NCBI GenBank assembly: GCA_021787335.1
Contig: JAJYMC010000048.1
Coordinates: 1-55,680 of the forward strand
Reading direction: 5' to 3'
Length of the DNA: 55,680 nucleotides
Origin: Bacillota bacterium
GTDB lineage: Bacteria; Bacillota; Sulfobacillia; JAJYWN01; JAJZPE01
Of the stretch, positions 7,583-52,393 are shown in pieces (position 1 is the first letter of the stretch; each line of letters starts with the position of its first letter). The notes under the pieces are model-generated. The model had not been told where the DNA came from. It searched no databases and saw only the letters and a list, made by a program, of their open reading frames with translations. The position numbers and the translations under genes are program-made.

Positions 7583-7598
7583 GGTTCTCCGCCTCCCG

Positions 7599-8732
7599 TC
7601 AACGGCCGTCCGGCCGGCTGTTTTCGATGGGCACGTACTCCCGGTCGACCCCGGCGTACTTGGGCCCAAAGATGGCCAGGCCGCGTTCGTTCCTCCAGGC
7701 CGCCGGGGCGGGGAAGCCGACGACGGCCACCGCCGCTCCCTCGGTCACCTCGGGGTTGATCAAGGGCTGGCCGTTCTTCGCGTCAAGCAGACAGATGAGA
7801 TCGGGTACGGTGGCGTCCGGGCGGCCGTCCCGCCACGAGGCCATGTGTTCGTTCTTGTACCAGACCAGGTACTCGGAGCCGGCCCACTCATCGGTCCCTT
7901 TCAATCGGACCTCGCCGAGGGTGAAGCCGGCTTCGTCTTTCCAAGTGGCCCGGGTGACGACCCCGCGGAATAACCGGAACCCGCCCCCAGCCTTACGGAC
8001 GGCCTCGACTGGGTCGGCCCCCTTCGCCCTGGCCTCATGAATGGCGGCACCGATCTTCTCGGCGTGGGAGATGGCCCCATCAACGACCGCGCCTTTAAGG
8101 CGACCAGCCCGGACAGGGTGATCGGCCACCCCCATCTTGTTTTGACTGGCCACGGCCATCGCTCGGACCAGGCTCTCGGCCCGGAAGTCGTTGACCACCT
8201 TCTTGATGATGGCCACGTCGCCAAACTGGTTAGCCACCGCCATCGGGGTGATGGACACGCCGCTCAGGTAGAAGGTCGAGTGGATGAGTTCCGGGACCGA
8301 GCGACCGGCCGGGTCGCCGTCGACGATGGGGACATCCAGGTTGGCCGCGGCCGTCAGGGCGCTGGCCGTATTTCCGCCGCCGAGTTCCGTAGAGATGACC
8401 GCGCCGACCTGCTGGCCGAGGTACTCGGCCAGGGCCCGGGCGGCGATGATCGACTCCAGCTCGGTCACCCTGGGCAGGTCCTTGTAGGCGGCGATCTGCT
8501 CGGGGCTGAGGGGCGAGATCGAGCCGGCGAAATACGGCGACAGCACCAGGGCGTCCGCCGGAAGCTCGTCGATGCTCGCCAGGCGGACCCGCTTGGCCGC
8601 GGCGGCGTCGGCCCGGACCATCTCCAGGCCCTTGGTCAGGCTTCCGCCTCCCCCCGTGCCCAGGACGGCGCATCCCAGAAGGATGTCCTCGAGCGTCTGC
8701 AACGTCAGTGTCCTCAACGCTTTTCCCTCCAT
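7599..8732 (-). CDS. DUF917 protein (S-methyl-thiohydantoin desulfurase-like), copy 2
   Basis: The 377-residue protein is paralogous to its downstream neighbour: it has the same AVLGTGGGGSLTKG start, the ELGGGNTA and DGDPAGRSVP motifs, and the closing KNEHMASWRDG...LICLLD block. Some members of this group occur as pairs, suggesting a two-subunit enzyme. It follows the importer ATPase gene by about 40 bp in the same operon, linking substrate uptake directly to the first processing step. That order supports a hydantoin-like or thiohydantoin-like substrate. Confidence 0.85.
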   Translation of the reverse strand: MEGKALRTLTLQTLEDILLGCAVLGTGGGGSLTKGLEMVRADAAAAKRVRLASIDELPADALVLSPYFAGSISPLSPEQIAAYKDLPRVTELESIIAARALAEYLGQQVGAVISTELGGGNTASALTAAANLDVPIVDGDPAGRSVPELIHSTFYLSGVSITPMAVANQFGDVAIIKKVVNDFRAESLVRAMAVASQNKMGVADHPVRAGRLKGAVVDGAISHAEKIGAAIHEARAKGADPVEAVRKAGGGFRLFRGVVTRATWKDEAGFTLGEVRLKGTDEWAGSEYLVWYKNEHMASWRDGRPDATVPDLICLLDAKNGQPLINPEVTEGAAVAVVGFPAPAAWRNERGLAIFGPKYAGVDREYVPIENSRPDGR

Positions 8733-36981: not shown

Positions 36982-37980
36982 TCAGGCCACCCAGCAGGCG
37001 ACCTTGTGGCCGGCGCCGCGGTCGGTCAGCTCGGGTTCCTTCTCCGAGCAGGCCGGCTTGGCCAGACGGCACCTCGTCCGGAAGTGGCAGCCGCTGGGCG
37101 GGTTGATCGGGCTGGGCACGTCGCCTTCGAGGATGATCCGGCGGCGCTCCTCCTCGACCGTGGGGTCGGGGATGGGAATGGCCGACAGGAGGGCCGTCGT
37201 GTAGGGATGGGACGGGTGGGCGTAAAGCTCGAAACCATCGGCTATCTCGACGATCTTGCCGAGGTACATGACGGCCACGCGGTTGGAGATGTGCTTGACC
37301 ATGGCCAGGTCGTGGGCGATGAACAGGTAGGTCAGGCCCATCTTCTCCTGGAGGTCCTGGAGCTTGTTGACCACCTGGGCCTGGATCGACACGTCCAGGG
37401 CCGAGATGGGTTCGTCGCAGATGATGAAACTCGGGTCGGCGGCCAGGGACCGGGCCAGCCCGATGCGCTGCCGCTGCCCGCCCGAGAACTCATGGGGGAA
37501 GCGGCTGGCGTGCTCGCGGCTCAGGCCGACCGTCTCGAGGAGCTGATAGATGCGCTCCTTACGGGCGTCGCCCTTGGCCAGGCCATGGATGTCGAGGGGC
37601 TCCCCGACGATGTCGCCGACGGTCATGCGGGGGTTCAGCGAGGCGTACGGGTCCTGGAAGATCATCTGGATCTTCCGGCGCACCCGGCGCATCTCCTCGG
37701 CCGGCAAGTCGTAGATGGACTGCCCGTCGAAGACGACCTTGCCCGAGGTCGGCTCGTAGAGCCGGGCCACGGTCCGTCCGACGGTGGTCTTGCCGCAGCC
37801 GCTCTCGCCGACGAGGCCGAGGGTCTCACCCTTGGCGATCTCGAAGCTGATGTCGTCGACGGCCTGGACCCATTCGTGGGAGGCGCCGAACGACAGGCCG
37901 GCGGCGGCCACCGGGAACCACTTCTTGAGGTGCTCGACCCGGACGAGGGCCTGGCCGTTATGGCCGTTTCCGCCGCTCAT
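36982..37980 (-). CDS. Oligopeptide importer ATPase (OppF-like), second system
   Basis: The 332-residue subunit has Walker [10 protein letters not shown], signature FSGGQRQR, Walker [13 protein letters not shown] and the C-terminal CHFRTRC motif of family-5 importers. It overlaps the oppD-like gene by 4 bp and ends before a strong terminator, so it is the last gene of the operon. Confidence 0.92.
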
Positions 37981-39002
37981 GCCGGCACCCCCTTCTTGAA
38001 GCCGGCCACGGCGGGCGCGGCGGGGTGCTGCAGCCAGCAGGCCACGTGGTGCTGCCCGTTCCCGTTGACCGGGACGAAGGGTGGCTCCTGCTCACGGCAG
38101 ATCTTCATGGCGTGGTCGCACCGAGGGTTGAAGCGACAGCCCACGGGCGGCTTGAGGAGGTCCGGCGGCTGCCCGTAGATGGGCACCAAACGGCGCTTCT
38201 CGGCCGCGTCGAGGCGCGGCACCGACCTCAGCAACCCCCAGGTGTAGGGATGCTGCGGGATTCCGTAGATCTCGTTGACCGGACCGTACTCGACGATCTT
38301 CCCGGCGTACATGACGATGACCCGAGTCGCCAGGCCGGCCACCACGCCCAGGTTGTGGGTGATGAGGATGATCGACATCCCGGTGGCCTTCTTGAGGTCC
38401 TTGAGTAACTCGATGATCTGGGCCTGGATGGTCACGTCGAGGGAGGTCGTCGGCTCGTCGCAGATGACCAGCTTAGGGTGGCAGGAGAGGGCCATGGCGA
38501 TCATCACCCGCTGCCGCATGCCCCCGGAGAGCTGGTGCGGGTACTGGGCGAGCCGCTTGTCCGCGCTCGGGATCTTGACCATCTCCAGGGTCTCGATGGC
38601 CCGGGCCCGGGCCTTGTCCTTCTCGACCTTCTGGTGCTGCCGGATGGCCTCCATGAGCTGCGTGCCGATGGTCAGGACGGGGTTCAGCGAGGTCATCGGG
38701 TCCTGGAAGACCATGCTGATGTCGTTGCCCCGGACGTGCCGCATCTCGCGCTCCTTGAGCTTGACGAGGTCGCGGCCGGCCAGTTCGACCGAACCGGCGA
38801 GGACCTTGCCCGGTTCGGGGATCAGTCGCAGCAGGGACATGGCCGTGACGCTCTTGCCACAACCGGACTCGCCGACGATGGCCACGGCCTCACCGCCGGC
38901 CACATCGAAGTTGACCCCATCGACCGCCCTGACCTCGCCGGCGTAGGTGAAGAACGAGGTCTTCAGGTCGCGGACTCTGAGCAGATTGTCCAAGGCCGCC
39001 AC
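37977..39002 (-). CDS. Oligopeptide importer ATPase (OppD-like), second system
   Basis: The 341-residue subunit has Walker [22 protein letters not shown], signature LSGGMRQR and Walker [13 protein letters not shown], and the C-terminal [14 protein letters not shown] motif. A degenerate scrap resembling its segment around [19 protein letters not shown] is found at 50014-50093. Confidence 0.93.
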
Positions 39003-39005
39003 CCC

Positions 39006-39965
39006 CTAGCGCCGCAGGCGCGGGTCGAGGGCGTCCCGCAACCCGTCGCCGAGGAAGTTGAAGGCCAGCATGGTCAGGCTGATAGCGGCCGCCGGGAAGA
39101 ACGTCTGCCACGGGTACGAACGCAACCCGCCGACGCCCTCCGAGGCCAGCACGCCCCAGGAGGCCTGGGGAGCGGCCACGCCGAGGCCGATGAAGGACAG
39201 CCAGGCTTCGGTGAAGATAGCCTGGGGGATGGACAGGGTCAGGGTGACGATGATCGGGCCCATCGCGTTCGGGATCAGGTGCCTGAGGAGCAGGCGCCGC
39301 TGGTCGGCCCCGACCATCCGGGCCGCCAGGACGAACTCCTGCTCCTTGAGGGCCAGCACCTGGCCGCGGACGATGCGGGCCATCCCCAGCCAGTAGACCA
39401 GCCCCAGGGCGACGTAGATGTTGAGCAACCCCGAGCCCATGACCACCATCAGGAGGATGACCACGAGCTGGAGCGGGATGCCATAGATGATGTCGACGAT
39501 GCGCATCATGACATTGTCGGTGCGCCCGCCGACCAGCCCGGAGATGCCTCCGTAGAGGGCTCCGACGGCCAGGTTGATGACGCTGGCGACGATGCCGATG
39601 GACAGGGAGATGCGCGCCCCATAGAGGACCCTGGTCAACTCATCGCGGCCGAGGTGGTCGGTCCCGAACCAGTGGGCCAGGCTGGGCGCCTTGTTGGCGT
39701 CGGTTAGCACCTGGCCGAAATAGGTATAGCCGGTCAGCATCGGGCCGAAGATGGCCAGGGCGATGAAGAGGATGATGACGTACAGGCCGCACATGGCCAG
39801 AAAGTTCTTTTTCAGCCGGCGCCAGGCGTCCTGCCAATAGGTCGTCGGCGGCCGGACGATGAGGTTCTGCTCTTCAGGGGCCGGTCCGACGTGTTCGAAG
39901 GCGTTCTCCGGAACGGGCCCGAAGACCCCCGGGTTGACCCCGTTGGCTACGCTCATGGCCTTCAA
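39006..39965 (-). CDS. Oligopeptide importer permease (OppC-like), second system
   Basis: The 319-residue protein has a cytoplasmic N-terminus of about 50 residues, a first helix (LAMCGLYVIILFIALAIFGPML), the loop HWFGTDHLGRDELTRV, further helices and the coupling motif AARMVGADQRRLLLRHLIPN. It forms the import pore with OppB. Confidence 0.93.
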   Translation of the reverse strand: MKAMSVANGVNPGVFGPVPENAFEHVGPAPEEQNLIVRPPTTYWQDAWRRLKKNFLAMCGLYVIILFIALAIFGPMLTGYTYFGQVLTDANKAPSLAHWFGTDHLGRDELTRVLYGARISLSIGIVASVINLAVGALYGGISGLVGGRTDNVMMRIVDIIYGIPLQLVVILLMVVMGSGLLNIYVALGLVYWLGMARIVRGQVLALKEQEFVLAARMVGADQRRLLLRHLIPNAMGPIIVTLTLSIPQAIFTEAWLSFIGLGVAAPQASWGVLASEGVGGLRSYPWQTFFPAAAISLTMLAFNFLGDGLRDALDPRLRR

Positions 39966-40891
39966 TCCTTCCGCCCGGCAATCTGGATCCGCGGATCCAG
40001 GAAGCCGTAGATGATGTCGACGACGAGGTTCATGAGCAGAAGGAAGGCCCCGTAGAAGATGGTCAGCCCGAGGATGGTCGTGTAGTCACGGTTGTTGACG
40101 CTCCAGACGAACTGCCGGCCGAGGCCCGGGATGGCGAAGATCTGCTCGATGATGAAGGTGCCGGTGAGGATGGCGGCGATGAGCGGGCCGAGGTAGGTGA
40201 CGATGGGCATGACCGCGTTCTTGACCGCGTGCCGCCAGGTCACCGCGAGCTCAGAAAGGCCCTTGGCGCGGGCCGTCTTGATGTAGTCCTGGCTGATGAC
40301 GTCGAGCATCGATGAGCGCATCAGCCGGGAGAAGGTCGCCAGGGGCAGGAGGGCCAGGGCGACCGCGGGCATGATGACCTGCCGCCAGCTGCCCCACATG
40401 GCCGGCGGCAGCCAGCGCAGCTTCAGGGCAAAGACGTACATCAAGAGCGGGGCGATGATGAAGCTCGGCACGGACACGCCGATGATGGCCACCAGCATGG
40501 TCACATTATCCTGCCACTTGTTCTGGCGCAGGGCCGAGATGATCCCGACCGGGATGCCGATGGCCATGGACAGGATGATGGAGATGATGCCCAGTTCGGC
40601 GGAGACCGGAAAGCCGCGGCGGATGAAGTCGTTGACCGTCTGGCCCTGGAACTTGAAGGACGGACCCAGGTCGAACCGGACGACCCCACCGAGGTAATCG
40701 AGATACTGCTGCCACAGCGGGTCGTCCAGATGGTATTTGGCCTCGATGTTCCGCATTACAGCCTCGGGCACGTTCCGCTCCCGGGTGAATGGTCCCCCGG
40801 GAATGGCGTGCATGAGGACGAAGGTGACGGTGGTGAGGATCCAAAGAGCAACGAAGGCGGCGAACACTCGCTGCAGGATGTAACGGGCCAA
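39962..40891 (-). CDS. Oligopeptide importer permease (OppB-like), second system
   Basis: The 309-residue protein begins with the usual ARYILQRVFAAFVALWILTTVTF segment and has six helices with the coupling loop TARAKGLSELAVTWRHAVKNA. The start is TTG 40891, 7 bases after GGAGG; the longer frame to 40951 is Arg/Gly-rich without a site. It overlaps the OppC-like gene by 4 bp. Confidence 0.92.
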   Translation of the reverse strand: MARYILQRVFAAFVALWILTTVTFVLMHAIPGGPFTRERNVPEAVMRNIEAKYHLDDPLWQQYLDYLGGVVRFDLGPSFKFQGQTVNDFIRRGFPVSAELGIISIILSMAIGIPVGIISALRQNKWQDNVTMLVAIIGVSVPSFIIAPLLMYVFALKLRWLPPAMWGSWRQVIMPAVALALLPLATFSRLMRSSMLDVISQDYIKTARAKGLSELAVTWRHAVKNAVMPIVTYLGPLIAAILTGTFIIEQIFAIPGLGRQFVWSVNNRDYTTILGLTIFYGAFLLLMNLVVDIIYGFLDPRIQIAGRKD

Positions 40892-40977
40892 GAGCTTCCC
40901 TCCCCCACCCGCGTCAAGGGAGGCGGGCAGGCCCCTATGGCGGGCCCGCACCGCCTCCCCGACGCGATGTCCAGGTT

Positions 40978-42636
40978 CTAGTGCTTCTCAATCCAGGCGT
41001 TCTTGAAGTCCACGCCGCCGATGGTGTTGATGGCGAGCCCCTTGACATAGGGCTTCATCAGCCAGTTGCTGACGTAGTAATAGATGGGCGCGACGACCAT
41101 GTCATCGCCGATGAGGATCTTCTCGGCGTCGTGCATGGCCTGCATCCGGACCTTTGGGTCGGCCGACATCTTCGCCGTATTGATCAACTCATCGAATTTC
41201 GGGTTGGAGTACGTCGTGTCGTTATTGCCGCCGTTGGTGACGAACATGTCCATGAAGGTCATCGGGTCGACGTAGTCGCCGATCCAGCCGGCCCGCGCCA
41301 CCTGGAAGTTATGAGCGTCCCTGGTCTCCAGATAGACCTTCCACTCTTCCACATGGAGCTTGACCTTCTCCTTGGGGATGCCAAGGTTCTTGGACCACAT
41401 CTCCTGGATGGCCTCGGCGATGGCCTTGTGGCTGGCGCTGCTGTTATAGATGATCTCGAAGCTCGGGAACTTCTTCATGTCCTTGTATCCGGCGTCGGCC
41501 AGGAGCTTCTTGGCCGCCTCGATGTCTTCCTTGAAGTAGTCTCCGCCGACAGCTCGGAAGTCCTTGCCAGCCTCGGTATCCGGAATGCCGGGACAAACGA
41601 AGGCGTAGGCCGGTAACCGCCCGTCCTTGAGGATCTGGTCAGTGATGAGTTTGCGGTCGATGGCCATGGCGAAGGCCTTGCGAACCCGCGGGTCATCGAA
41701 GGGCTTCTTGGTGACGTTGAAGGAGTAGTAGTAGGTGCCCAGGTAGGGCAGCGTAGTGAGCTTGCCCTCTTTCTTCAACCGGTCGATCTCCTGCACAGGC
41801 ACGTTATTGTCGAGGTCGGTCTGGCCGCTCTCCCACATGGTCAGCCCGGTGTTCTGATCGTCGATCAGATAGATCATCAGCTTCTTGAGGGGAACATTCT
41901 TGGCGTCCCAGTAGGTCTTGCTCTTCTCCATCTCGATGACTTGGTTGTTGACCCACTTCGTCATCTTGAAGGGGCCGTTGGTGACGAACTGCTCCGGCTT
42001 GGTGGCCCACTTGTCGGCGAACTTCTCGACTTCCGCCCGGTGGACGGGATAGAGGGTCGGGAACGAGGTCAAGCCGAGGAAGTACGGGGTCGGGGCCTCG
42101 AGGGTAACCTCGAGGGTATAGTCATCCGTGGCCTTGACGCCGAGGGCGTCGGACAGCTGCTTGATCTTCGCCTCGTCCTTGGCGTCGACCTCGTTAAGGG
42201 TCTTGCCGCCCTTGATGTAATACAGCTGATAGGCATACTGAGACCCGGTCCGCGGATCGAGAGCCCTCTTCCAGGACCACTCGAAGTCCTTCGCGGTGAC
42301 CGGGTCGCCATTGGACCATTTTGCGTTTTTGCGCAGGTGGAACGTATACTTCAGATTGTCGGACGAAATATCCCACTTCTCAGCTACGCCGGCGTAAGGC
42401 TTGTTGTTCCCGTCCATTCTGGTCAAGCCTTCGTACATCTGGGATCCGATATTGAACTCTGGAATGCCTGTCTGGAGGGCCGGATCGAGGGTCTCCGGCT
42501 CGGCGCCGACGTTGAACCGGAGGGTCTGATCCTTGGCCAGGTCACCAACCCCGGCCGGCTTCTTGGCGCAGCCCGCCAATCCCAGCGAGAGGGCCACGGC
42601 CACAGTCAGCATGATGGCGATGAGTTTCTTAGACAA
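40978..42636 (-). CDS. Oligopeptide-binding lipoprotein (OppA-like), second system
   Basis: The 552-residue lipoprotein has signal and lipobox LAGC near residues 20-23. The mature part has the family-5 features TLRFNVGAEPETLDPALQTG, QMYEGLTRMDGNNKPYAGVAEKW and KFHLRKNAKWSNGDPVTAKDFEWSWKR-like pattern, closest to OppA rather than DppA. It should bind peptides of several residues. The start is TTG 42636 with GAAGGA. It heads the operon oppA-B-C-D-F. Confidence 0.93.
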   Translation of the reverse strand: MSKKLIAIMLTVAVALSLGLAGCAKKPAGVGDLAKDQTLRFNVGAEPETLDPALQTGIPEFNIGSQMYEGLTRMDGNNKPYAGVAEKWDISSDNLKYTFHLRKNAKWSNGDPVTAKDFEWSWKRALDPRTGSQYAYQLYYIKGGKTLNEVDAKDEAKIKQLSDALGVKATDDYTLEVTLEAPTPYFLGLTSFPTLYPVHRAEVEKFADKWATKPEQFVTNGPFKMTKWVNNQVIEMEKSKTYWDAKNVPLKKLMIYLIDDQNTGLTMWESGQTDLDNNVPVQEIDRLKKEGKLTTLPYLGTYYYSFNVTKKPFDDPRVRKAFAMAIDRKLITDQILKDGRLPAYAFVCPGIPDTEAGKDFRAVGGDYFKEDIEAAKKLLADAGYKDMKKFPSFEIIYNSSASHKAIAEAIQEMWSKNLGIPKEKVKLHVEEWKVYLETRDAHNFQVARAGWIGDYVDPMTFMDMFVTNGGNNDTTYSNPKFDELINTAKMSADPKVRMQAMHDAEKILIGDDMVVAPIYYYVSNWLMKPYVKGLAINTIGGVDFKNAWIEKH

Positions 42637-43008
42637 TGGTTCCTTCGACCTCCTTCGGAAGACCTTCTCCGAACGGAAGCCGTCGGGCCTTGCTTCGCTT
42701 GTCTTGCTTGCCTAAGAACGAGCCTCGCCTCACGGGCTTGCGCGCGTTTCAGACGGTCTTTGCGCTTCCGAGCTTTCCGGCGGTTCCGTCCCCAGGAAAC
42801 AAGGACTGGAAACGTGGGCAAAAGACCGAAACCTAACACACCCCGAATCGCGACGGAAACCAGGTCGCCCCACTCTCACCCCCTGTGAGCTTCCCGCCGG
42901 GCTGAAGCCCTGTAGAAATGCGGGTAATGGGCATAATTGGCACAAATTATCTAATTCGCTCCCAGGTTCCGGAATCCTGCGTTCTTTCTAATAGGTTGGA
43001 AGAGTTAA
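42637..43008. other. Upstream region of the second opp operon
   Basis: About 370 bp lacks a supported gene. It contains runs of short GCTT-type repeats (42680-42715) and an AT-rich spot at 42935-42962 that could hold the oppA promoter. A short basic open frame on the minus strand (42606-42839) overlaps the oppA start and has no support. Confidence 0.4.
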
Positions 43009-43033
43009 AAAACGCCCCGGTAACTGGGGCGTT
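43009..43033 (-). terminator. Terminator of the decayed two-component pair
   Basis: ACGCCCC and GGGGCGT arms around the loop AGTTACC (43009-43033) are followed on the minus strand by TTTTTAAC. It is about 50 bp past the TAG at 43081 and still looks intact. Confidence 0.8.
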
Positions 43034-43080
43034 TCAGGTGCGATGGCGGGCGTCGAACCGAGATCCGGGCGGCGGGCCGC

Positions 43081-44553
43081 CTAACCCGCCGGGAGCGAGA
43101 ACCAGAAGCGGGCTCCGTCGGCCGGGACGTTCTCGGCCCCGACCGCCCCGCCGTGGGCCTCGACGAAGCCCTTCACGATGGCCAGTCCCAGGCCGGTCCC
43201 CCCCTCGGCCCGCGTCCTGGTCGGCCCGGTAGAAGCGGTCGAACACGTGGGGCAGGTCCTCGGGCGGGACGCCGGGACCACTGTCGGTGACGCTGACGAC
43301 GGCCGCGGGGCCGCCTTCCGCGCCGTGCCCCCCTGGTCCTTGCCCGGGGACGACGTCGATGCTCACCCGGCCATCCTGGCCGGCGTGGCGCAGGGCATTG
43401 GTTAGCAGGTTGAGGAGGACCTGCTTGACCCGGTCGGGGTCGGCCTCGACCGGCGGGACGCCGGCCGCCTCCTCGACCTGAAGGTCGATGGCCAGCCGCT
43501 CGGCCTCGGGGCTGATCACCCCGACCACCGAATGGGCCAAGGCCGCCAGGTCGAGGCGCTCCTTCCGCAGGGGCAGCTGGCCGGCCTCGGCCAGGCTCAG
43601 TTCCCGAAGGTCGTTGACCAGACGGGTCATCCGCAGGACCTCGTCCTGCAGGGACAGCAGGACCTCCGGACGCAGCGCGGCCGCGTCCTCCTGGGCCGCT
43701 TCGAGCTGGCCGCGGAGAATGGCCAGGGGCGTCCGGAGCTCGTGGGCAATGTCGCCGACCATGTTCCGCCGCAGCTCCTCATTGCGCTGAAGGCTGCGGG
43801 CCAGGAAGTTGAAGGCCCGGGCGAGGTCCCCGATCTCGTCACTGCGGTCCTCCGGGACGCGGTGGGCCAGCTCTCCCCGGGCCAGCCGGTGGGCACCGGC
43901 GGCCAGGACGTCCAGCGGCCGGCTCAAGCGCCTTGCCAACCAGACGGCGACCAGCCCGGCGAGGACGGCCGACAAGAGGCCCCCCAGGACCGAGATGACC
44001 AGCGCCGAGTGGGAGAAGTCGCTGTCGAGCGCGCTCAGGCCAGCCCGGGGCCCGGTGACCAGGGTACCCGCTGCCCGTCGACGAGGATGGGACGCCCCGC
44101 GTTGATGACGGCTCGGCTGAGGACGGTTCCCACGGCCGGGGCGTCACCGCCCTCGGGGGATAGGGTCGCGACCACCCGGCCATCGCGGTCGGCCAGGGTC
44201 AGCGTCTCGGACCCGAGGAGACTATGCGGAGGCCCACCCGGCCAGCCGCCGTAGCGCCCAAAGCCCATCCGGCCCAGGCCTCCCCAACCCGGAGTCGACA
44301 TCATCGTCTGAACGCCTTCCCAGCTGCCGTTGGCGGCGTAGTAGCCGGCCAGGGTCGCCTGGACCTGCTCGAGGCGGGCGTCGCGCTGCCCGGCCAGGTA
44401 CCCGGCGAAGAGCCGCTGGGTGGCCAGGCTCGAGACCAGGCCGACGAGGGTGGCGCTGACCACGACGACGCCGATGAAGGACAGGGTCAGCCGCCGGGCG
44501 AGGTTCATCCGGCGCAGGAACAGTGAGTCGGAAAAAGGCCGTGGTGCCTTCAT
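43081..44553 (-). pseudogene. Decayed sensor histidine kinase (copy A)
   Basis: This region is a close paralogue of the intact kinase at 50138-51604 along its whole length, but it has at least two frame breaks. Near 44060-44080 a deletion joins GQRV to an unrelated tail, so the N-terminal frame ends at 44035. Near 43215 a 5-base loss (GCGTCCTGG against GCGTCCGGGCCTGG in copy B) shifts the frame within the ATP-binding domain, leaving the [13 protein letters not shown] block in another frame. The HAMP and HisKA ([15 protein letters not shown]) parts are still readable. The start overlaps the regulator's TGA exactly as in copy B. It is non-functional as a single protein. Confidence 0.85.
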
Positions 44554-44819
44554 CGTCCCTCACCTCCCCCGCCCTTAAACTTGTAGCCGACTCCGAAGAC
44601 GGTGCCGATGAACCTCGGCTCTGAGGGGTCGGTCTCGACCTTCTTGCGGAGGTTGCGGACACGGGTGTCGACCGAACGCTCGTAGCCCTCCTACGCGTAG
44701 CCGAAGGCTGCGTCCAGCAGCTGCAGGTGTGAGAAGACCATACCCGGGTGCCGGGCGAGGGCCCCGAGGATGGCGAACTCGGTCGGGGTCAGGCGACCGG
44801 CCGTCGACGGTCAGCGTCT
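44550..44819 (-). pseudogene. Truncated response regulator (copy A)
   Basis: Only the C-terminal winged-helix part remains (RSVDTRVRNLRKKVE and FIGTVFGVGYKF). Homology to the intact regulator at 51601-52311 stops near 44819 within the segment matching its GRPIDLTPTEF region, so the receiver domain is absent. A nonsense change is also present: the codon matching Tyr in the FGYAYEGYE run of copy B is TAG (near 44695). The break is immediately next to the AT-richer island, so insertion or deletion at the island edge probably removed the rest. Confidence 0.8.
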
Positions 44820-44978
44820 GCACATCTCTCACTGGCTGGCGGGAAGGAATGTGGGCTGTGTCGGATTTCAGCCCTTCCTGTCGAACTCTAATCGCTCTTC
44901 CCTTGAAGGAACTGGCACTGATGGTGTCGAAACCCTGGCATAAAATAGGCTCCGGCACAGATGTTGGGAGGCATTAGG

Positions 44979-47117
44979 ATGTTAGATTCTGGCCCGAATT
45001 ACGTATTTGGGACTCGACGACGTATGTTCGAAGACGGAGGAGCAAGATACCTAACCTTTGTCGTAACTCAGAACTGTAACCTTGCATGTAAATACTGCTA
45101 TGTAACTCACAAGAACGCTCATGGAAGGATGAGTTTTGACACCGCGCGAAGGGCAGTGGACTTTTTTCTCTCACAAGACTTCCCTCAAGACTCCGTGGTA
45201 TGGGACTTTATTGGAGGCGAACCGCTGTTAGAAATACAACTTATCGATCAAATCTGTGATTATATCAAGGTGGAATCGTACAGGCGGAACCACAAATGGA
45301 AAGACCGCTACCTCATTAACATGAGTACAAATGGAGTACTGTATGACAGCAAGCCAGTTCAGACGTTCATTGCAAAGAACCGCGAAAAGGTAAACTTTGG
45401 CTTGACCATTGACGGGATCAAAGCCAAACATGACGCGAACAGAGTATACCCGGACGGGTCCGGTTCCTATGAGGATGTTATTAGAAGCGTGAGGTTATGG
45501 TCCCAGCAATTCCCCGAAGCGGTCACCAAAGTAACCGTTGCCTCTGATGACTTGCCTTACCTTTACGAGAGCATCGTTCATCTTTGGAACCTCGGCTTAA
45601 GAGATGTACCCGCTAACGTCGTCTACGAAGACGTTTGGAAGCCGGGCGACGACCAGATACTAGAAGTACAGTTAAAGGAATTGGCGGATTACGTTATAGA
45701 CAATAAGCTTTGGAACAAGGTCAGATGTACTTTCTTCACTGATACGATTGGGTTCCCCAATAAGAGAGAGTATCTTTATTCTAATGCATGCGGAGCCGGA
45801 AGGTCCATTGCCGTCGACCATACCGGATCGCTGTACCCGTGCTTGAGGTTTATCGGTTACTCCCTGAATAACAAGAATGGATACACTGTCGGCCACATTG
45901 ATCGCGGCTTCGACCAGGACAAGATCAGGGCCTTTGAAGCCTTGACTCTCTTGGCCCAAAGCAAACAAGAATGTATTGAATGTCCAATAGCCTTTGGATG
46001 CACATGGTGTCAAGGGTGGAACTATGATTCTGCACCTTCCGAAACCATATACCATAGATCAACCGCAATATGCAGGATGCACAAAGCAAGAATAAGAGCG
46101 AACGAGTACTATTGGGGTAGACTGGCCAGAGAAACTGGAATGCGTCGCCCGCAGCAAGAACAGGGAAAATGGCTTAGGCATCTCTTCATTATGGCTTCAG
46201 ATGATGCAGTAGTTCATTGTTCCTATGAGAACAAGAGCACAGATTTCACTTTGATCGATGTTTCGCACCTTATAGCCGGACTCCGCTTCGCGGAGCGCGA
46301 GTTTTTCAGACCGGTCATCCTTCATTCAAAGTCTGGAGAGAGGTTATTAATCCCTTCGCCGTATGATCCTCTTCACATCGTGAGCGGTGATAAGGCCTGC
46401 GCCGATTCGGAAATCGCAGTTCATGAGAATACCGTCCAGGACTCAGTCTCAACAGACACAAGCATACTTATCGTCGACAATGGGTTGATTCCGGCCATTG
46501 GTGATCTGACAAGCAAGCTATTGGACCAATCCCGCAGAGTTAACCTTGTTCTCCGCGACCCTGGATCCCTCTCTCCGCATGACCTTGTCATGTACGAAGA
46601 ACAACTGAAACTTGTGGCGCGAAAACTCTTGTCGCTACGCTCCGCGGGGATAAAAAAGGAAGTTAGTGCTATAACCGACCGCTTTGAGCTTGGAGAACCA
46701 GAGGACTGCGGCGCCGGCGTGAGCAGTCTAACTCTCGCGCCCAATGGGCGTCTATATCTATGCCCTGCGTTTTATCTCGAAGATAAGGGGTCATTTGTTG
46801 GAACTCCAGTTGACGGGATAGACATGAACAAGGTCGAGATGTGCACGCGAAAGAAAGCTCCTTTGTGCCAAGATTGCCAAGCTTTCTCTTGTCGACGTTG
46901 CCTTTATCTCGGGAGAAAGTATACCTTGCAGATGAACGTCCCTTCGAAGGCACAGTGCACTACCGGATTGGTTGAACTCCGAGTTAGCGCTTGGATGGCA
47001 CGTCAGATAGAAAAGGTAGGTCCGGACTGGGTGAGCGTGGCTGAAAAGGATGAGCTTTTGGACCCTCTTGAACGGCTATTCTCGCGGACCCGCCTAGTGG
47101 GGGCGGGTGCGCTATGA
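44979..47117 (+). CDS. Radical SAM/SPASM peptide maturase with a second SPASM-like half (CXXX-repeat type fusion)
   Basis: This 712-residue enzyme should modify the Cys-rich peptides coded downstream. Residues 25-230 are a radical SAM core: C33, C37 and C40 in QNCNLACKYCY bind the SAM cluster, followed by WDFIGGEPLL. Residues 265-370 are a SPASM domain with C271 (CGAGRS), C288 (YPCLRF), C332, C335, C341, C344 and C365. From about 400 a second half lacks the SAM motif but repeats the ending: C577 (CGAG), C595 (LYLCPAFY), C622, C630, C633, C638, C641 and C660. From memory the halves correspond to TIGRFAM families for CXXX-repeat peptide maturation, usually separate genes. ATG 44979 lies 7 bases after GGGAGG. 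The coding sequence is AT-richer than its surroundings. Confidence 0.85.
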   Translation: MLDSGPNYVFGTRRRMFEDGGARYLTFVVTQNCNLACKYCYVTHKNAHGRMSFDTARRAVDFFLSQDFPQDSVVWDFIGGEPLLEIQLIDQICDYIKVESYRRNHKWKDRYLINMSTNGVLYDSKPVQTFIAKNREKVNFGLTIDGIKAKHDANRVYPDGSGSYEDVIRSVRLWSQQFPEAVTKVTVASDDLPYLYESIVHLWNLGLRDVPANVVYEDVWKPGDDQILEVQLKELADYVIDNKLWNKVRCTFFTDTIGFPNKREYLYSNACGAGRSIAVDHTGSLYPCLRFIGYSLNNKNGYTVGHIDRGFDQDKIRAFEALTLLAQSKQECIECPIAFGCTWCQGWNYDSAPSETIYHRSTAICRMHKARIRANEYYWGRLARETGMRRPQQEQGKWLRHLFIMASDDAVVHCSYENKSTDFTLIDVSHLIAGLRFAEREFFRPVILHSKSGERLLIPSPYDPLHIVSGDKACADSEIAVHENTVQDSVSTDTSILIVDNGLIPAIGDLTSKLLDQSRRVNLVLRDPGSLSPHDLVMYEEQLKLVARKLLSLRSAGIKKEVSAITDRFELGEPEDCGAGVSSLTLAPNGRLYLCPAFYLEDKGSFVGTPVDGIDMNKVEMCTRKKAPLCQDCQAFSCRRCLYLGRKYTLQMNVPSKAQCTTGLVELRVSAWMARQIEKVGPDWVSVAEKDELLDPLERLFSRTRLVGAGAL

Positions 47118-47135
47118 AAGGGGTTCTGAAGGAAC

Positions 47136-47453
47136 ATGGGAGAAGAGACCAGGGAATTGAGTTTGGGTTTTATAACTGAACCTGAAAACGAAGCTCTGAA
47201 GAGGATCTATGATCGAAGAATGGCATTGATGAGCTTGGCTAGAACATTGGCGACCCTGCCGGATAAGACATCTAATGACTTGTATAGCCGCCTAGTGGCT
47301 GACTCCACCTCAGTCGAGGGGGATATGCGGCACTGGTGGGAGGGTGTATGTCGTGACCACGGATGGGAAAACCCGGCTGTCGGGAGCTGGAGTGTGAACT
47401 TCCAAACGAAGGCAGTCACTGTCTATTTGCCTATCGCCGCAGGTGGGTCTTGA
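47136..47453 (+). CDS. Small accessory protein of the peptide-modification cluster
   Basis: The 105-residue acidic protein has no membrane segment or cysteine pair (one Cys, in EGVCRDHGW). It has a helical N-terminal part (EPENEALKRIYDRRMALMSLARTLATL) and a Trp-rich end (MRHWWEGVCRDHGWENPAVGSW). Size and position, between maturase and exporter, match a small protein found in CXXX-repeat systems (a TIGRFAM 'modification system protein', from memory). It may bind the leader peptide. ATG 47136 follows GAAGGA closely. The next gene begins 6 bp after its stop. Confidence 0.65.
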   Translation: MGEETRELSLGFITEPENEALKRIYDRRMALMSLARTLATLPDKTSNDLYSRLVADSTSVEGDMRHWWEGVCRDHGWENPAVGSWSVNFQTKAVTVYLPIAAGGS

Positions 47454-47458
47454 GTTGC

Positions 47459-49243
47459 ATGGCAAGATTGCGGACCAGAGCATGTTACTCTTCGAACGGT
47501 ACGACGAATAGGAGCAACGTACTTGTTCTCAGGTCTATTCGATATTGCAGCGATTTTTCTTGGTCAAGTGCGAGTATTGTCTTGATCGCAGCTTTAGGTA
47601 TGGTCTTGTCCGTTCTCTATCCCCGGCTTCTGGGACGAACACTTGATGCGGTCGTCGGCCGCAACTTGAAACTAGTCTATTCTCTGCTCCTCGCGGTCCT
47701 TGGTATTCTGTTGCTTCAAGCACTTCAAAGCCTAATGGAAACCTATCTTCTGGGAAGCATGACAGGTCGTATTGCGTGGCGGGCAAAAAAAGATCTTTAC
47801 ACCCGGGTCATTTCGCTGCCTGCCCGAAGATACGACACTACGCAGCAAGGTGAATTCCTGTCGCGAATCGAGAATGACGTAGGCGCACTTAACGCATTAT
47901 TGAGCAATCTGTTACGCCTAGTGCCTGAGTCCATACGGACGGTCGTTATCCTTGTCCTGATTTTCAGACTGTCATTTCTTCTTTCAGTCGTGCAGTTGGC
48001 CATAATCCCATTCCTCTATGCAACCTCATCTGTGTCTGGCAGGGCTCTCAAGAGGCTCAATCTGGCTTTAAGACAATTGTCTGACCGCTATTTTGGTTTC
48101 GTTCAAGAAACCTTGGCTGCAAACCGCGAGGTGAAAAGCCTACAACTAGAACAAGACCGGGTTCGGCGTTTTGCGGAATTGGCTAAGGACCTCTGGGCTG
48201 CGTCGATGTCAATAACCGTCACCCAAGCGTGTTCCGGCCTCAGCAACTTGGTTATTGGAGGTCTAGGTTCCGTTGCCATTCTGGGGTTCGCCGCACGGCA
48301 AATCGCGACCGGTGATCTCACTATCGGGGAACTGATAGCCTTTACAATGTACGCCGCGCAACTCTCCTCCGCGCTGAAGGATCTCACTGGGTTTGTCAGA
48401 CTGAAAGGCGAGCTCTCTCCGTCTCTAGAAAGGTTGTTCTCCCTGCTAGATGAGGATTCTGAGGATCCGTCGATGGTCACGGGGCATCCGATAAGGGTTC
48501 TTAGGGGCAGGGTTCTCCTTCGTAATGTGAGCTTCAGTTATGGCGATGGGGGGCCACGGGTCCTCGACGGAGTGACATGCGAGTTCGAACCCGGCCAAAT
48601 CACGGGGCTAATGGGCTCGAACGGGAGTGGTAAGACGACCCTCCTGAACCTTCTGTCCAGACTCTACACGCCACAGACCGGCATGATTCTTATTGATGGG
48701 CAGGATATACGAAACGTTGACCTTAAGAGCTTGCGGAGGGCCATATCTGTAGTCCACCAGGAACCTGCGTTCTTTCGCACGACGATCTTGGAGAACATGC
48801 TCTTGGCGAATCAAGAGGCGACTCCAGCTGAGGTCGAAAGAGCTTGTGAGCTCGCTGGAGCCGCCGCATTCATTAGAGATTTCCCAAAGCGGTACGAAAC
48901 AGTGTTGTCAGATCGGGGAGCCAGCCTGTCTGGTGGACAGCGGCAGCGGCTGGCTTTGGCAAGAGCGCTATTGAGGAGATCCCCTATCCTGCTATGCGAC
49001 GAGGCTACATCGGCTGTTGACGTCGAAACTGAGGCTCAGATCATGACGACTCTAAAGGAGTTAGCTCCTGGCCATAATATCATCCTTGTCTCCCACCGCC
49101 CCTCAGCCATCATGCATACCGACAAGGTGCTGGTTCTGGAACAAGGAAGAATTCGTCACATGGGTGTACCGCGCGAGATTCTTGACCCTAGTTTGCTGGA
49201 GCAACGGCCAAGTCTTGACTCTGCTCGTGCCAACCCCACATAG
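47459..49243 (+). CDS. ABC exporter (fused membrane and ATPase domains), probable peptide exporter
   Basis: The 594-residue half-transporter has six helices over about residues 35-290, then an ATPase with Walker A GSNGSGKTT, signature LSGGQRQR, Walker B ILLCDEAT and switch HRPS. It dimerises in the membrane to export a substrate, most likely the Cys-rich peptide. No C39 peptidase domain precedes it, so it does not itself cut the leader. Start ATG 47459 is uncertain: the site (AGGTGGG) is weak. The frame is open to 47363 but overlaps the small gene. It ends 17 bp before the tandem precursor cassettes. Confidence 0.85.
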   Translation: MARLRTRACYSSNGTTNRSNVLVLRSIRYCSDFSWSSASIVLIAALGMVLSVLYPRLLGRTLDAVVGRNLKLVYSLLLAVLGILLLQALQSLMETYLLGSMTGRIAWRAKKDLYTRVISLPARRYDTTQQGEFLSRIENDVGALNALLSNLLRLVPESIRTVVILVLIFRLSFLLSVVQLAIIPFLYATSSVSGRALKRLNLALRQLSDRYFGFVQETLAANREVKSLQLEQDRVRRFAELAKDLWAASMSITVTQACSGLSNLVIGGLGSVAILGFAARQIATGDLTIGELIAFTMYAAQLSSALKDLTGFVRLKGELSPSLERLFSLLDEDSEDPSMVTGHPIRVLRGRVLLRNVSFSYGDGGPRVLDGVTCEFEPGQITGLMGSNGSGKTTLLNLLSRLYTPQTGMILIDGQDIRNVDLKSLRRAISVVHQEPAFFRTTILENMLLANQEATPAEVERACELAGAAAFIRDFPKRYETVLSDRGASLSGGQRQRLALARALLRRSPILLCDEATSAVDVETEAQIMTTLKELAPGHNIILVSHRPSAIMHTDKVLVLEQGRIRHMGVPREILDPSLLEQRPSLDSARANPT

Positions 49244-49337
49244 CCGTGGCCATTCCTCCTGACTTTGCCTAATGCCTTTACAGTCATTGGCCTCGCAAGA
49301 ACCACTTGCTAGCTCAAGGTTGCCATGAAGGAGGTGA

Positions 49338-49499
49338 ATGACATGTATCTTATCTCCAAGACCATTGGTGCGTCCTTTGTACACATGCGAGGTCTCGACA
49401 AATGGCTGCACAACTTGTAGCGATACTTGCTACGGCGGATGCAGCGGTTCCTGCACTGCTACGTGCACTGGATTTGTGAAATTAGGGCCAAACCCTTGA
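49338..49499 (+). CDS. Cys-rich precursor peptide 1, leader frame shifted
   Basis: In the frame that keeps the cysteine core, ATG 49338 starts a 53-residue peptide whose core (CEVSTNGCTTCSDTC, then YGGCSGSCTATC) has spacing C-x6-C-x2-C-x3-C-x3-C-x3-C-x3-C, nearly the same as peptide 2. Its first 16 residues (MTCILSPRPLVRPLYT) differ from the leader MYLISKTG of peptide 2. That leader is instead coded from ATG 49343, 5 bases on in another frame, and stops after 25 codons at 49420. Compared with copy 2 there is a 5-base length difference in the leader. The ATG 49338 lies only 3 bases after GGAGG, so translation is doubtful. Probably a broken precursor; frameshifted or reinitiated expression is possible. 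Confidence 0.55.
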   Translation: MTCILSPRPLVRPLYTCEVSTNGCTTCSDTCYGGCSGSCTATCTGFVKLGPNP

Positions 49500-49563
49500 C
49501 CTTCTCTAACGCTCCGCAGTTGATTGGTCGTCGCAACAGCCACCTGCTAGGTCAATGGCGCCA

Positions 49564-49580
49564 TAAAGGAGGTGAATAAC
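49564..49580 (+). promoter_or_regulatory. Strong ribosome site deciding the peptide-2 start
   Basis: AAAGGAGGTGA with an 8-base gap leads to ATG 49581. This favours MYLISKTG as the N-terminus over the in-frame GTG at 49572, which lies inside the site. Confidence 0.8.
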
Positions 49581-49790
49581 ATGTACCTTATCTCCAAGAC
49601 TGGACCACAGGTGGGTCCGTTGTACACATGCGAGGTCTCGATATATGGCTGCACAACTTGTAGCGATACTTGCTACGGAGGGTGCAGCGGTTCCTGCTAT
49701 ACCAATGCTTGCACCGGCCAGTTAGGTGGTGGTGGCTGCGACCCGGCCATAACGAATCCAAGCGGTAGCGGCTGTGTCGCGTTGCCCTAG
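49581..49790 (+). CDS. Cys-rich RiPP precursor peptide 2 (CXXX-repeat type)
   Basis: The 69-residue peptide has a short leader (MYLISKTGPQVGPLYT) and a core with nine cysteines: spacing C-x6-C-x2-C-x3-C-x3-C-x3-C-x4-C, then C in GGGGCDP and C in SGSGC. Gly, Ser and Thr fill the gaps, and there is no Lys or Arg after the leader. This is typical of substrates of radical SAM/SPASM enzymes that make thioether or other cross-links; the radical SAM gene is in the same cluster. The x3 spacing matches CXXX-repeat families. It ends before a terminator. Whether the last two cysteines are modified is unknown. Confidence 0.8.
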   Translation: MYLISKTGPQVGPLYTCEVSIYGCTTCSDTCYGGCSGSCYTNACTGQLGGGGCDPAITNPSGSGCVALP

Positions 49791-49871
49791 CGGGAACCAT
49801 CCATCAAGAAGATCCTTTGCGAGCAGCAACCTCAATCGTGGGCGACCGCCTAGCTTGGTGGTGTAACAAAC

Positions 49872-49899
49872 TTGGGCCGAATTCTTCGGCCCATTTTTT
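49872..49899 (+). terminator. Intrinsic terminator of the peptide cluster
   Basis: GGGCCGAA and TTCGGCCC arms (49874-49881 and 49885-49892) with the loop TTC are followed by A and six T. It ends the island's transcript 82 bp after the precursor stop. Confidence 0.92.
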
Positions 49900-50013
49900 C
49901 TGGGGCGCAAATGGGGCAACAGGGTGGAGCTCTACGCTCTCGATCCTGGGTCACGCCAACTCTCCCCAGCACATCTCGGCCTATTAAGAGGGGGAAAGAA
50001 GTAATCTCCTTTT

Positions 50014-50093
50014 GACTGGGCCGCGTTCCACGATCCTACCGGCGTCCATGACGATGACCCGGTCGCCAGACCTGGTTGCTACGCCCGGGAGCA
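50014..50093 (-). pseudogene. Scrap of an OppD-type ATPase gene
   Basis: About 80 bp resemble 38277-38360, the part of the oppD-like gene coding [16 protein letters not shown]. Here the minus frame reads roughly GDRVIVMDAGRIVERGP and then degenerates. It lies downstream of the intact kinase, just after the island terminator. It is a relic of importer genes that once lay beside the two-component pair or were copied with it. Confidence 0.6.
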
Positions 50094-50137
50094 AACGAAC
50101 CTTGCCCGGCTTTCGGCGGCCCAACCTTCCGGGGGGC

Positions 50138-51604
50138 CTAGCTCACTGGGAGCGAGAACCAGAAGCAGGCCCCGCCGCCGGGGACGTTCTCGGCGCCGAC
50201 CGCCCCGCCGTGGGCCTCGACGAAGCCCTTGACGATGGCCAGGCCCAGGCCTGTCCCCCCCGCGGCCCGCGTCCGGGCCTGGTCGGCCCGGTAGAAGCGG
50301 TCGAAGATGTGGGGCAGGTCTTCGGTCGGGACGCCGGGACCGCTGTCGGTGACCCTGACGACGGCCGCGGGGCCGCCTTCCGCGCCGTGCCCCCCTGGTC
50401 CTTGCCCGGGGACGACGTCGATCGTCACCCGGCCATCCTGGCCGGCGTGGCGCAGGGCGTTGGTCAACAGGTTCAGGAGGACCTGCTTGACCCGGTCGGG
50501 GTCGGCCTCGACGGGTGGAACCCCGGCCGCTTCCTCCACCCGCAGGTCGATGGCCAGCCGCTCGGCCTCGGGGCCGATCACCCCGACCACCGCGCGGGCC
50601 AGCGCCGCCAGGTCGAGGCGCTCCTTCCGCAGGGGCAACTGGCCGGCCTCGGCCAGGCTCAGCTCCCGCAGGTCGTTGACCAGACGGGTCATCCGCAGGA
50701 CCTCGTCCTGCAGGGACAGCAGGACCTCGGGGCGAAGCGCGGCCGCGTCCTCCTGGGCCGCTTCGAGCTGACCGCGGAGGATGGCCAGGGGCGTCCGCAG
50801 TTCGTGGGCGATGTCCCCGACCATGTTCCGGCGCAACTCCTCGTTGCGCTGGAGGCTACGGGCCAGGGAGTTGAAGGCGCGGGCGAGGTCCCCGATCTCG
50901 TCACCCCGGTCTTCCGGGACGCGGTGGGCCAGGTCCCCTTGGGCCAGCCGGTGGGCCCCCGTGGCCAGGACATCCAGCGGCCGGGTCAGCCGCCTGGCCA
51001 GCCATACGGCGACCAGCCCGGCGACCACCGCCGAGAGCAGCCCGCCCAGCACCGAGATGATCAGCGCGGACCGGGCGAAGTCGCTGTCGACGGCGCTCAG
51101 GCCGGCCCGGGGTCCCGTCACCAGGGTGCCGACCCGTTGGCCGCCGACGACGATGGGCCGCCCACCGTCGACCGTGGCGCGGCTGAGGACGGTGCCCACG
51201 GCCGGGGCGCCGCTGCCCTCGGGGGCCAGCGTGGCGACCACCCGGCCGTCCTGGTCGGCCAGGGTCAGCGTCTGGGAACCGAAGGAGCCGAACGGGGGAC
51301 CCCCTGGCCAGCTCCGGTAGCGGCCGAAGCCCATCCGGCCCAGGCCGCCCCAGCCGGGCGTCGACATCATCGTCTGGACACCGTCCCAGCTGCCGTTGAC
51401 GGCGTAATAGCCGGCCAGGGTCGCCTGGACCTGCTCCAGGCGCGCGTCCCGCTGCCCGACCAGGTACCCGGCGAAGAGCCGCTGGGTGGCCAGGCTGGAG
51501 ACCAGACCGACGAGAGTGGCGCTGACCACGACGACGCCGATGAAGGACAACGTCAATCGCCTGGCCAGGGTCATCCGGCGGGGGAAGAGCCGGCGGGCGC
51601 TCAT
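50138..51604 (-). CDS. Sensor histidine kinase (intact copy B)
   Basis: The 488-residue membrane kinase has helix 1 at about 17-39, an outer sensor region 40-178 rich in Gly/Pro ([24 protein letters not shown]), helix 2 at about 180-202, a HAMP domain, HisKA with phosphorylated H267 in DIAHELRTP, and HATPase with the N box (LLTNALRHA), DSGPGVP and [13 protein letters not shown]. The signal is unknown. It overlaps the upstream regulator gene by 4 bp. It is the functional paralogue of the decayed copy at 43081-44553. Confidence 0.93.
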
Positions 51605-52311
51605 CGGACGTCACCCGTCCCGCCCGTGAACTTATAGCCGACCCCGAAGACCGTGCCGATGAACCGGGGCTCCGAGGGGTCGGCTTCGATCTTCTTGCGA
51701 AGGTTACGGACATGGGTGTCGACCGAGCGCTCATAACCCTCATAGGCGTAGCCGAAAGCCGCCTCCAGCAGTTGCAGGCGGGAGAAGACCTTCCCGGGAT
51801 GCCGGGCCAGGACCCCGAGGATGGCGAACTCCGTGGGGGTCAGATCGATCGGCCGGCCGTCGACGGCCACCGTGCGGGCGTCAAAGTCGATGGCCAGCGG
51901 GCCGCGCTCGAGGCGGTCCGGCCCGGCCTTTCCACCCGCCCCGCCGGCCCGCCGGAGGACAGCCCTGATCCTGGCCGTCAATTCGCGCAGGCTGAATGGC
52001 TTGGTGACATAATCGTCGGCCCCCAGTTCGAGGCCGACCACCCGGTCGACCTCGTCCGCTCGGGCGGTGATGACGATGATGGGGATGGTGGACCCGGGCC
52101 GAAGCCGCTTGATGACCTCGGTTCCACCGAGCCGCGGGAGCATCAGGTCCAGCAGGATGAGGTCCGGAGCCTGTTCCCTGGCCATCCTCAGGCCGGTGTC
52201 GCCGTCCGGCGCGGTAAGGGTGGCAAAACCCTCGCGCCCGAGATACTCGGCGACGGCTTCACGCAGCTTGGTCTCGTCTTCGACGATGAGGATGCGGGGC
52301 GCGGCAGCCAT
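51601..52311 (-). CDS. OmpR/PhoB-family response regulator (intact copy B)
   Basis: The 236-residue regulator has a receiver domain with E11/D12, phosphorylated D55 in LILLDLMLP, the conserved Thr in ITARADE and K104 in YVTKPF, then a winged-helix DNA-binding domain (ELTARIRAVLRR linker, RSVDTHVRNLRKKIE and FGVGYKF). It is probably paired with the kinase it overlaps. An 11-bp-period direct repeat lies upstream of its start, a spacing OmpR-type proteins prefer. Confidence 0.93.
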   Translation of the reverse strand: MAAAPRILIVEDETKLREAVAEYLGREGFATLTAPDGDTGLRMAREQAPDLILLDLMLPRLGGTEVIKRLRPGSTIPIIVITARADEVDRVVGLELGADDYVTKPFSLRELTARIRAVLRRAGGAGGKAGPDRLERGPLAIDFDARTVAVDGRPIDLTPTEFAILGVLARHPGKVFSRLQLLEAAFGYAYEGYERSVDTHVRNLRKKIEADPSEPRFIGTVFGVGYKFTGGTGDVR

Positions 52312-52393
52312 GGTTTTCCCTCGCGTCGTTGGCCGGGCGTCTTGCCCGGTACCTTCAATCTACCAGAAGGTGTTCAAGTAAATCTGGGCGCCC

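Follow-up and report, generated by a model that had tools for sequence, protein, structure and literature searches.

Why should a single gene join a radical SAM/SPASM peptide maturase to a second cysteine-rich half that lacks a SAM site, and what might that half contribute? The question is raised by a gene in the 55,680-nucleotide stretch of a Bacillota contig (JAJYMC010000048.1) that was analyzed here and is called the window.

The fused gene and its cassette

The features of the cassette, all on the forward strand, are as follows.

44979..47117, +: fused maturase gene, 712 aa from ATG 44979
45045..46112, +: radical SAM/SPASM domain, TIGR04115, residues 29-384 (NCBIfam and PF04055 model matches)
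45075..45098, +: SAM-cluster motif C39xxxC43xxC46, the sole CxxxCxxC of the whole protein
45789..46073, +: first seven-Cys SPASM cluster region, C277-C371 (Cys pattern, alignment)
46113..46175, +: linker between the halves, about residues 385-405 (alignment, ends of split genes)
46176..46706, +: predicted degenerate radical SAM barrel without CxxxCxxC, residues 406-582 (model, CteB match, hhalign)
46464-47078, +: match to TIGR04119 (CXXX repeat peptide maturase), residues 502-706 (NCBIfam)
46707..46958, +: second seven-Cys SPASM-like cluster region, C583-C666 (Cys pattern, alignment)
47136..47453, +: TIGR04116 CXXX repeat peptide modification system protein, 105 aa (51.9 bits against a cut-off of 50, a marginal match)
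47459..49243, +: ABC exporter with membrane and ATPase domains (probable start 47459; ORF open from 47363)
49343..49499, +: precursor copy 1, leader MYLISKT from 49343, core frame 49338-49499
49581..49790, +: precursor copy 2, MYLISKTGPQVGPLYTCEVSIYGCTTCSDTCYGGCSGSCYTNACTGQLGGGGCDPAITNPSGSGCVALP, with GGAGG upstream

Residues are counted from ATG 44961 throughout. The ORF is also open from this codon (44961-47117, +; 718 aa); ATG 44979 is the better and probably the true start because GGGAGG (44967-44972) lies six bases upstream of it.

In the NCBIfam scan, residues 29-384 matched TIGR04115 with 511.8 bits (cut-off, 350). When the two halves were searched separately, the first gave 500 bits with the same model and 40.7 bits with PF04055 (cut-off, 29.5). 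C39, C43, and C46 are invariant in 26 relatives. A sequence-only reading of this DNA had placed a seven-Cys SPASM cluster at the end of the first half, and this was confirmed (C277, C294, C338, C341, C347, C350, and C371). The nearest solved structure is CteB (E = 1e-38); the model of the first half was superimposed on 5wgg with Z = 31.4 over 334 residues, and the match starts at CteB residue 92. The half begins straight at the radical SAM core, without an N-terminal leader-binding domain. PapB was the second-best NCBIfam match after TIGR04115, but the half falls short of the PapB-type ranthipeptide maturase model NF047865 (210.9 bits versus a cut-off of 340). Cyclophane and sactipeptide SPASM maturase models also scored, but lower. 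The linker lies where the first protein of split relatives stops and the second begins. Since the TIGR04115 and TIGR04119 models are both typed "equivalog_domain," neither need be a stand-alone protein for NCBI.

Domain scans of the ABC exporter detected no C39 or other recognized peptidase domain. The two precursor copies lie in tandem downstream of the fusion. Both carry CX3C runs, yet they fall outside the families TIGR04114, TIGR04117, and TIGR04118: copy 1 stayed under the NCBIfam cut-offs (TIGR04117, 17.7 versus 50; TIGR04114, 10.3 versus 20; TIGR04118, 10.7 versus 35), and copy 2 matched none of the three. In copy 1, the leader is out of frame with the Cys core, with a 5-nt deletion relative to copy 2, which is either decay or a sequence error. 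Because of this frameshift, full function of this copy of the cluster is uncertain.

The GC content of the cassette is 51%, compared to 67% in the rest of the window, and a direct repeat (86.5% identical) of a histidine kinase/response regulator flanks it (43073-44817 and 50130-51873). The upstream copy of this repeat is broken. In a congener (genome G398), which gave no TIGR04119 match, about 350 bases separate the neighboring peptide ABC genes (matching 36988-42740) from a single kinase/regulator copy (matching 50106-52325), and the segment of about 43033-50105 (approximately 7 kb) is missing. Thus, the cassette and one kinase/regulator copy were either gained here or lost in the congener; the GC contrast favors a gain, as judged from base composition, over a loss in the other lineage.

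The second half

As the sequence-only reading had stated, the second half has no CxxxCxxC motif; it also gave no match to PF04055 or to any other recognized catalytic domain in Pfam. It does belong to a maturase family, since TIGR04119 matched with 175 bits in the search of the half alone and with 194.6 bits on residues 502-706 (cut-off, 150). The general SPASM model TIGR04085 reached 18.2 bits on this half alone, under its cut-off of 27, and therefore we assign the half by TIGR04119 and by its fold.

The same reading had counted eight Cys in the second cluster. All eight are present (C583, C601, C628, C636, C639, C644, C647, and C666). C628 recurs in just 3 of 63 relatives and is not a conserved residue, while the other seven, together with C420, are invariant in 63/63 second halves from several phyla (62 relatives were aligned). 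A CGAG...LYLCP opening had been described as common to both clusters; CGAG is found in both, but the first half reads LYPC and only the second LYLCP. The spacing C583x12Gx4C601x34C636x2C639x4C644x2C647x18C666 agrees with the published SPASM seven-Cys pattern Cx9-15Gx4C-xn-Cx2Cx5Cx3C-xn-C (PMC12093266), its x4 and x2 being slightly under the quoted x5 and x3. Exactly two such patterns occur in the protein (277-371 and 583-666). Their origin by chance was rejected, as none arose in 20,000 shuffles of either half and 63 homologues share them. Judged by alignment, this conservation of the SPASM Cys across phyla argues against decay of the second half. The conserved Cys would allow five clusters, namely, the radical SAM cluster, two auxiliary clusters (Aux) in the first half, and two (Aux') in the second.

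Predicted alone, the second half gave a metal-free model (pLDDT, 85.6; pTM, 0.85). Foldseek matched this model to CteB with E = 2e-10, and in VIA, it aligned with CteB residues 92-450 at Z = 21.9 and an rmsd of 3.1 over 271 residues; the next matches were the radical SAM/SPASM maturases TigE, anSME, and ChlB (Z = 15-16). In an hhalign profile alignment, the final barrel strands and the SPASM region of the second half matched the radical SAM half (E = 4e-6). According to the model, the second half is a complete radical SAM plus SPASM fold minus the SAM site, i.e., a pseudo-radical SAM protein. An initial assignment as a SPASM-only domain was replaced after structure prediction had revealed this full fold. 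"Pseudo-dimer," the term used in the sequence-only reading, is apt in that what is predicted to be paired with the first half is a whole degenerate fold and not a SPASM half. The TIGR04119 model (210 residues) covers only the last 205 residues of the half and does not reach the region of C420. Strands were assigned at all six barrel positions, and the helices expected after barrel strands 2, 3, and 4 appear to be absent from the model.

The codon of C420 (46218-46220, +) falls in the former SAM-cluster loop. Beyond the first strand, the two halves pair residue by residue with no gap (RYLTFVVTQNCNLACKYC above RHLFIMASDDAVVHCSYE). In this ungapped secondary-structure register, A416, C420, and E423 occupy the CxxxCxxC positions, with C420 on the middle Cys (C43). 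Among relatives of the second half, the old first position is S or A, and the third is mostly E or D and otherwise variable. The gapped hhalign alignment instead puts C420 on the third Cys (C46) and not on C43. Either way, the alignments place C420 within the former cluster loop. The points new here are the predicted pseudo-radical SAM nature of the second half over its whole length and this invariant leftover Cys.

Fused and split relatives

A scan of 84,980 species genomes detected 269 relatives of the second half, the best 80 of which were kept. Together with places found otherwise, 83 places were examined; 7 were fused and 76 were not. Since relatives were picked by similarity to the window, these proportions are no census. 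They bear out the expectation of the sequence-only reading that related systems have two genes. The idea that the fusion is rare or special to this genome did not hold, because six further fused homologues were found: two clusters (L037 and L038) in one MAG of the same class; one on plasmid pAPRE01 of Anaerococcus prevotii, already annotated by NCBI as "radical SAM peptide maturase, CXXX-repeat target family"; and one each in Sporosalibacterium, Pseudobacteroides, and a Lachnospiraceae MAG. Fused ORFs in independent genomes and on the annotated plasmid also rule out an assembly artifact. The contigs of L037 and L038 are titled Acetobacteraceae bacterium HOT.MB2.46 but group in the window's class, so that the deposited name looks wrong; each of the two fused-maturase clusters in that genome has a distinct precursor.

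In trees of 76 loci, the fused proteins formed one group, with support of 0.96 for the joined halves and 0.97 for the first half, but just 0.36 for the second half alone. The simplest reading of these trees is that there was one fusion or, with the root elsewhere, one fission. In even samples, the cut-off was exceeded by 1/398 genomes of the window's phylum (the window's own) and by 1/398 around Pseudobacteroides (the seed); around Bacteroides, it was exceeded by 6/395, all with frames too short for a fusion. The genes of split pairs are 3 to 5 nt apart in 53 of 72 cases and overlap in 11. Because split genes adjoin or overlap and the fused proteins form one clade, the two halves act as a unit. 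The sequence-only reading held that both work on the same peptide, and fusion indeed makes a shared substrate likely, as far as can be inferred from gene arrangement.

An ABC exporter was found near 6 of the 7 fused genes and TatC near none of them. At the split loci, a Cys-rich ORF with a Tat-type RRxFF signal was present in 67/76 and TatC was nearby in 48/76. The lone RRxFF match on the fused side (L070) lies upstream of the likely start. A strict rule, with fusion tied to ABC and splitting to Tat, was discarded: two split loci (L064 and L079) have ABC genes, and the fused locus L038 shows neither ABC nor Tat. The substrates of the fused clade seem to be short leader peptides that leave through ABC transporters, and those of the Bacteroidota split form seem to be longer repeat proteins secreted via Tat.

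Several further observations were made among the relatives. A C-terminal Cys ends 61 of 72 split TIGR04115 proteins (L049-L126), and 40 of these 61 end in -Ile-Cys (e.g., ...KPKSNDVIC). These tails vary in length and sequence, and the linker of the fused clade has no counterpart of them. The terminal Cys is possibly a ligand offered to the partner protein. No relatives were found in viral contigs. One contig deposited as "Bacteriophage sp." from human feces (L046, 2222-6270) has a complete split CXXX cluster with a Tat-signal precursor, both maturases, a TIGR04116-like protein, TatA, and TatC; this contig looks like a bacterial fragment. In the window's phylum, another Cys-repeat RiPP-like locus was noted (L039), where a 326-aa ORF (7195-8175) with many Cys pairs of CxC spacing in SRT-rich repeats lies between a radical SAM/SPASM gene and a second radical SAM gene and adjoins phage-tail-like genes.

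Candidate role of the second half and known systems

On balance, we consider it probable that the first half is a PapB/CteB-like thioether maker and that the second is its dedicated, nonradical partner for docking and electron return. The gene would encode in one chain the TIGR04115-TIGR04119 pair known from CXXX-repeat RiPP systems. Its first half would cleave SAM at C39/C43/C46 and most likely cross-link the Cys-rich core of the MYLISKT-led precursor (CTTCSDTCYGGCSGSC...) through Cys thioethers, with a substrate thiol binding the open Aux cluster, as with CteB and PapB. The second half would be a descendant of the same kind of enzyme that lost its SAM site and kept two predicted auxiliary [4Fe-4S] sites. 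Most likely, it would give the multi-Cys peptide a second cluster at which a thiol can dock and would also provide a route for the electron left on the auxiliary clusters when a thioether forms, so that no outside shuttle would be needed to bring this electron back to the SAM cluster. The adjacent ABC transporter would export the product. That C420 and the two auxiliary clusters of the second half are themselves the built-in return path and second docking site is a tentative suggestion that we regard as possible but doubtful.

We favor a docking and electron-return partner because of two precedents. In PapB, the substrate thiol binds to one auxiliary cluster, and the bond-forming step leaves the protein with an electron; re-reduction of the SAM cluster requires that this electron be passed on by intermolecular transfer, likely via the second auxiliary cluster (PMC10470005). 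In thuricin CD biosynthesis, TrnC and TrnD form a tight complex in which only the SAM cluster of TrnC is strictly needed (PMC12093266). In principle, the enzyme could do without a fused relay, since PapB gets by with FMN or flavodoxin as its shuttle.

It is somewhat unlikely that the second half serves only as a scaffold whose clusters, or another metal, are structural and which grips leader or core so that the first half can work along the Cys repeats. A holder for the leader may be needed, given that the first half has no leader-binding domain of its own; the apparent loss of barrel helices 2-4 in the model could open a groove; and leader binding is the main part played by TrnD in an AlphaFold 3 model of TrnC/TrnD (PMC12093266). 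However, a pure scaffold could swap its cluster Cys, and the seven are kept even in divergent homologues; moreover, TIGR04116 is an alternative leader binder. A pure relay, for its part, does not explain why C420 is invariant despite the lost SAM cluster. This Cys, kept while the other CxxxCxxC positions were replaced, could instead take part with a cluster in a different, SAM-independent step, e.g., thiol/disulfide chemistry, which would make the second half a second catalyst. NCBI calls the TIGR04119 family a maturase, and the barrel core is kept in the model, but with neither a SAM motif nor another recognized catalytic domain, and with no precedent in the literature searched, we regard such a catalyst as quite improbable.

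Instead of a ranthipeptide-type thioether, the product of the first half could also be a sactionine alpha-thioether, a C-C cross-link, or an epimer. Regiochemistry cannot be fixed by sequence similarity, and the lower-scoring models mentioned above include cyclophane and sactipeptide maturases. Nevertheless, the nearest solved relative, CteB, and the nearest named NCBIfam group, PapB, are thioether formers, and the precursor core is rich in Cys with CX3C spacing, so that such a product seems unlikely. For the second half, docking combined with electron return remains our preferred role.

The locus bears on the role of auxiliary clusters in SPASM enzymes and on re-reduction of the SAM cluster between turnovers. 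Nature has separated the pieces, with the SAM cluster and two auxiliary sites in one half and auxiliary sites only in the other, and the same pair is found fused and unfused. Deleting the second half or its Cys would probe auxiliary clusters while leaving the catalytic domain untouched, and the fused form, with its fixed stoichiometry, should ease expression and crystallization of the pair. If the relay via C420 and the auxiliary clusters is true, one polypeptide does the electron transfer that PapB leaves to outside shuttles.

A literature search that covered few subscription journals returned no text match for the TIGR accessions, for CXXX repeat peptides, or for a pseudo-radical SAM SPASM protein. 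The fusion is a member of a known, uncharacterized family that databases hold as neighboring genes and rarely as one gene. The Bacteroidota CXXX-repeat system (e.g., L046, L049, and L059) shares both enzyme families, and the members that were scored passed the cut-offs; a TIGR04116-type protein is near 73/76 split places, with the gene order of the window. In contrast to the one gene, short leader, and ABC exporter without Tat of the window, this system has separate maturase genes and longer CXXX-repeat precursors with a Tat-type RRxFF signal, often accompanied by TatAC. A close counterpart in architecture is APRE_RS08890 of A. prevotii (WP_012797095.1; 728 aa), with the same TIGR04115-TIGR04119 fusion, an ABC transporter downstream, and also an upstream small ORF with a CX3C core. 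However, its C-terminal half is 27% identical, it lies on a conjugative plasmid, and its NCBI name covers the first domain only.

CteB (5wgg/5why), a SCIFF thioether maturase, resembles both halves in fold and in the seven-Cys SPASM pattern, but it is a single radical SAM/SPASM unit, and its part before residue 92 has no counterpart here. PapB, a ranthipeptide maturase acting on CX3D motifs, likewise has a Cys-rich core as its target but no fused partner. TrnC/TrnD are alike in that two related radical SAM proteins form a complex with one essential SAM cluster; they differ in that TrnD has a Twitch cluster of three Cys and a SAM site that still works, the genes are separate, and the product is a sactipeptide. 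A partner without any SAM site and with two predicted auxiliary sites seems to go further along the path of TrnC/TrnD.
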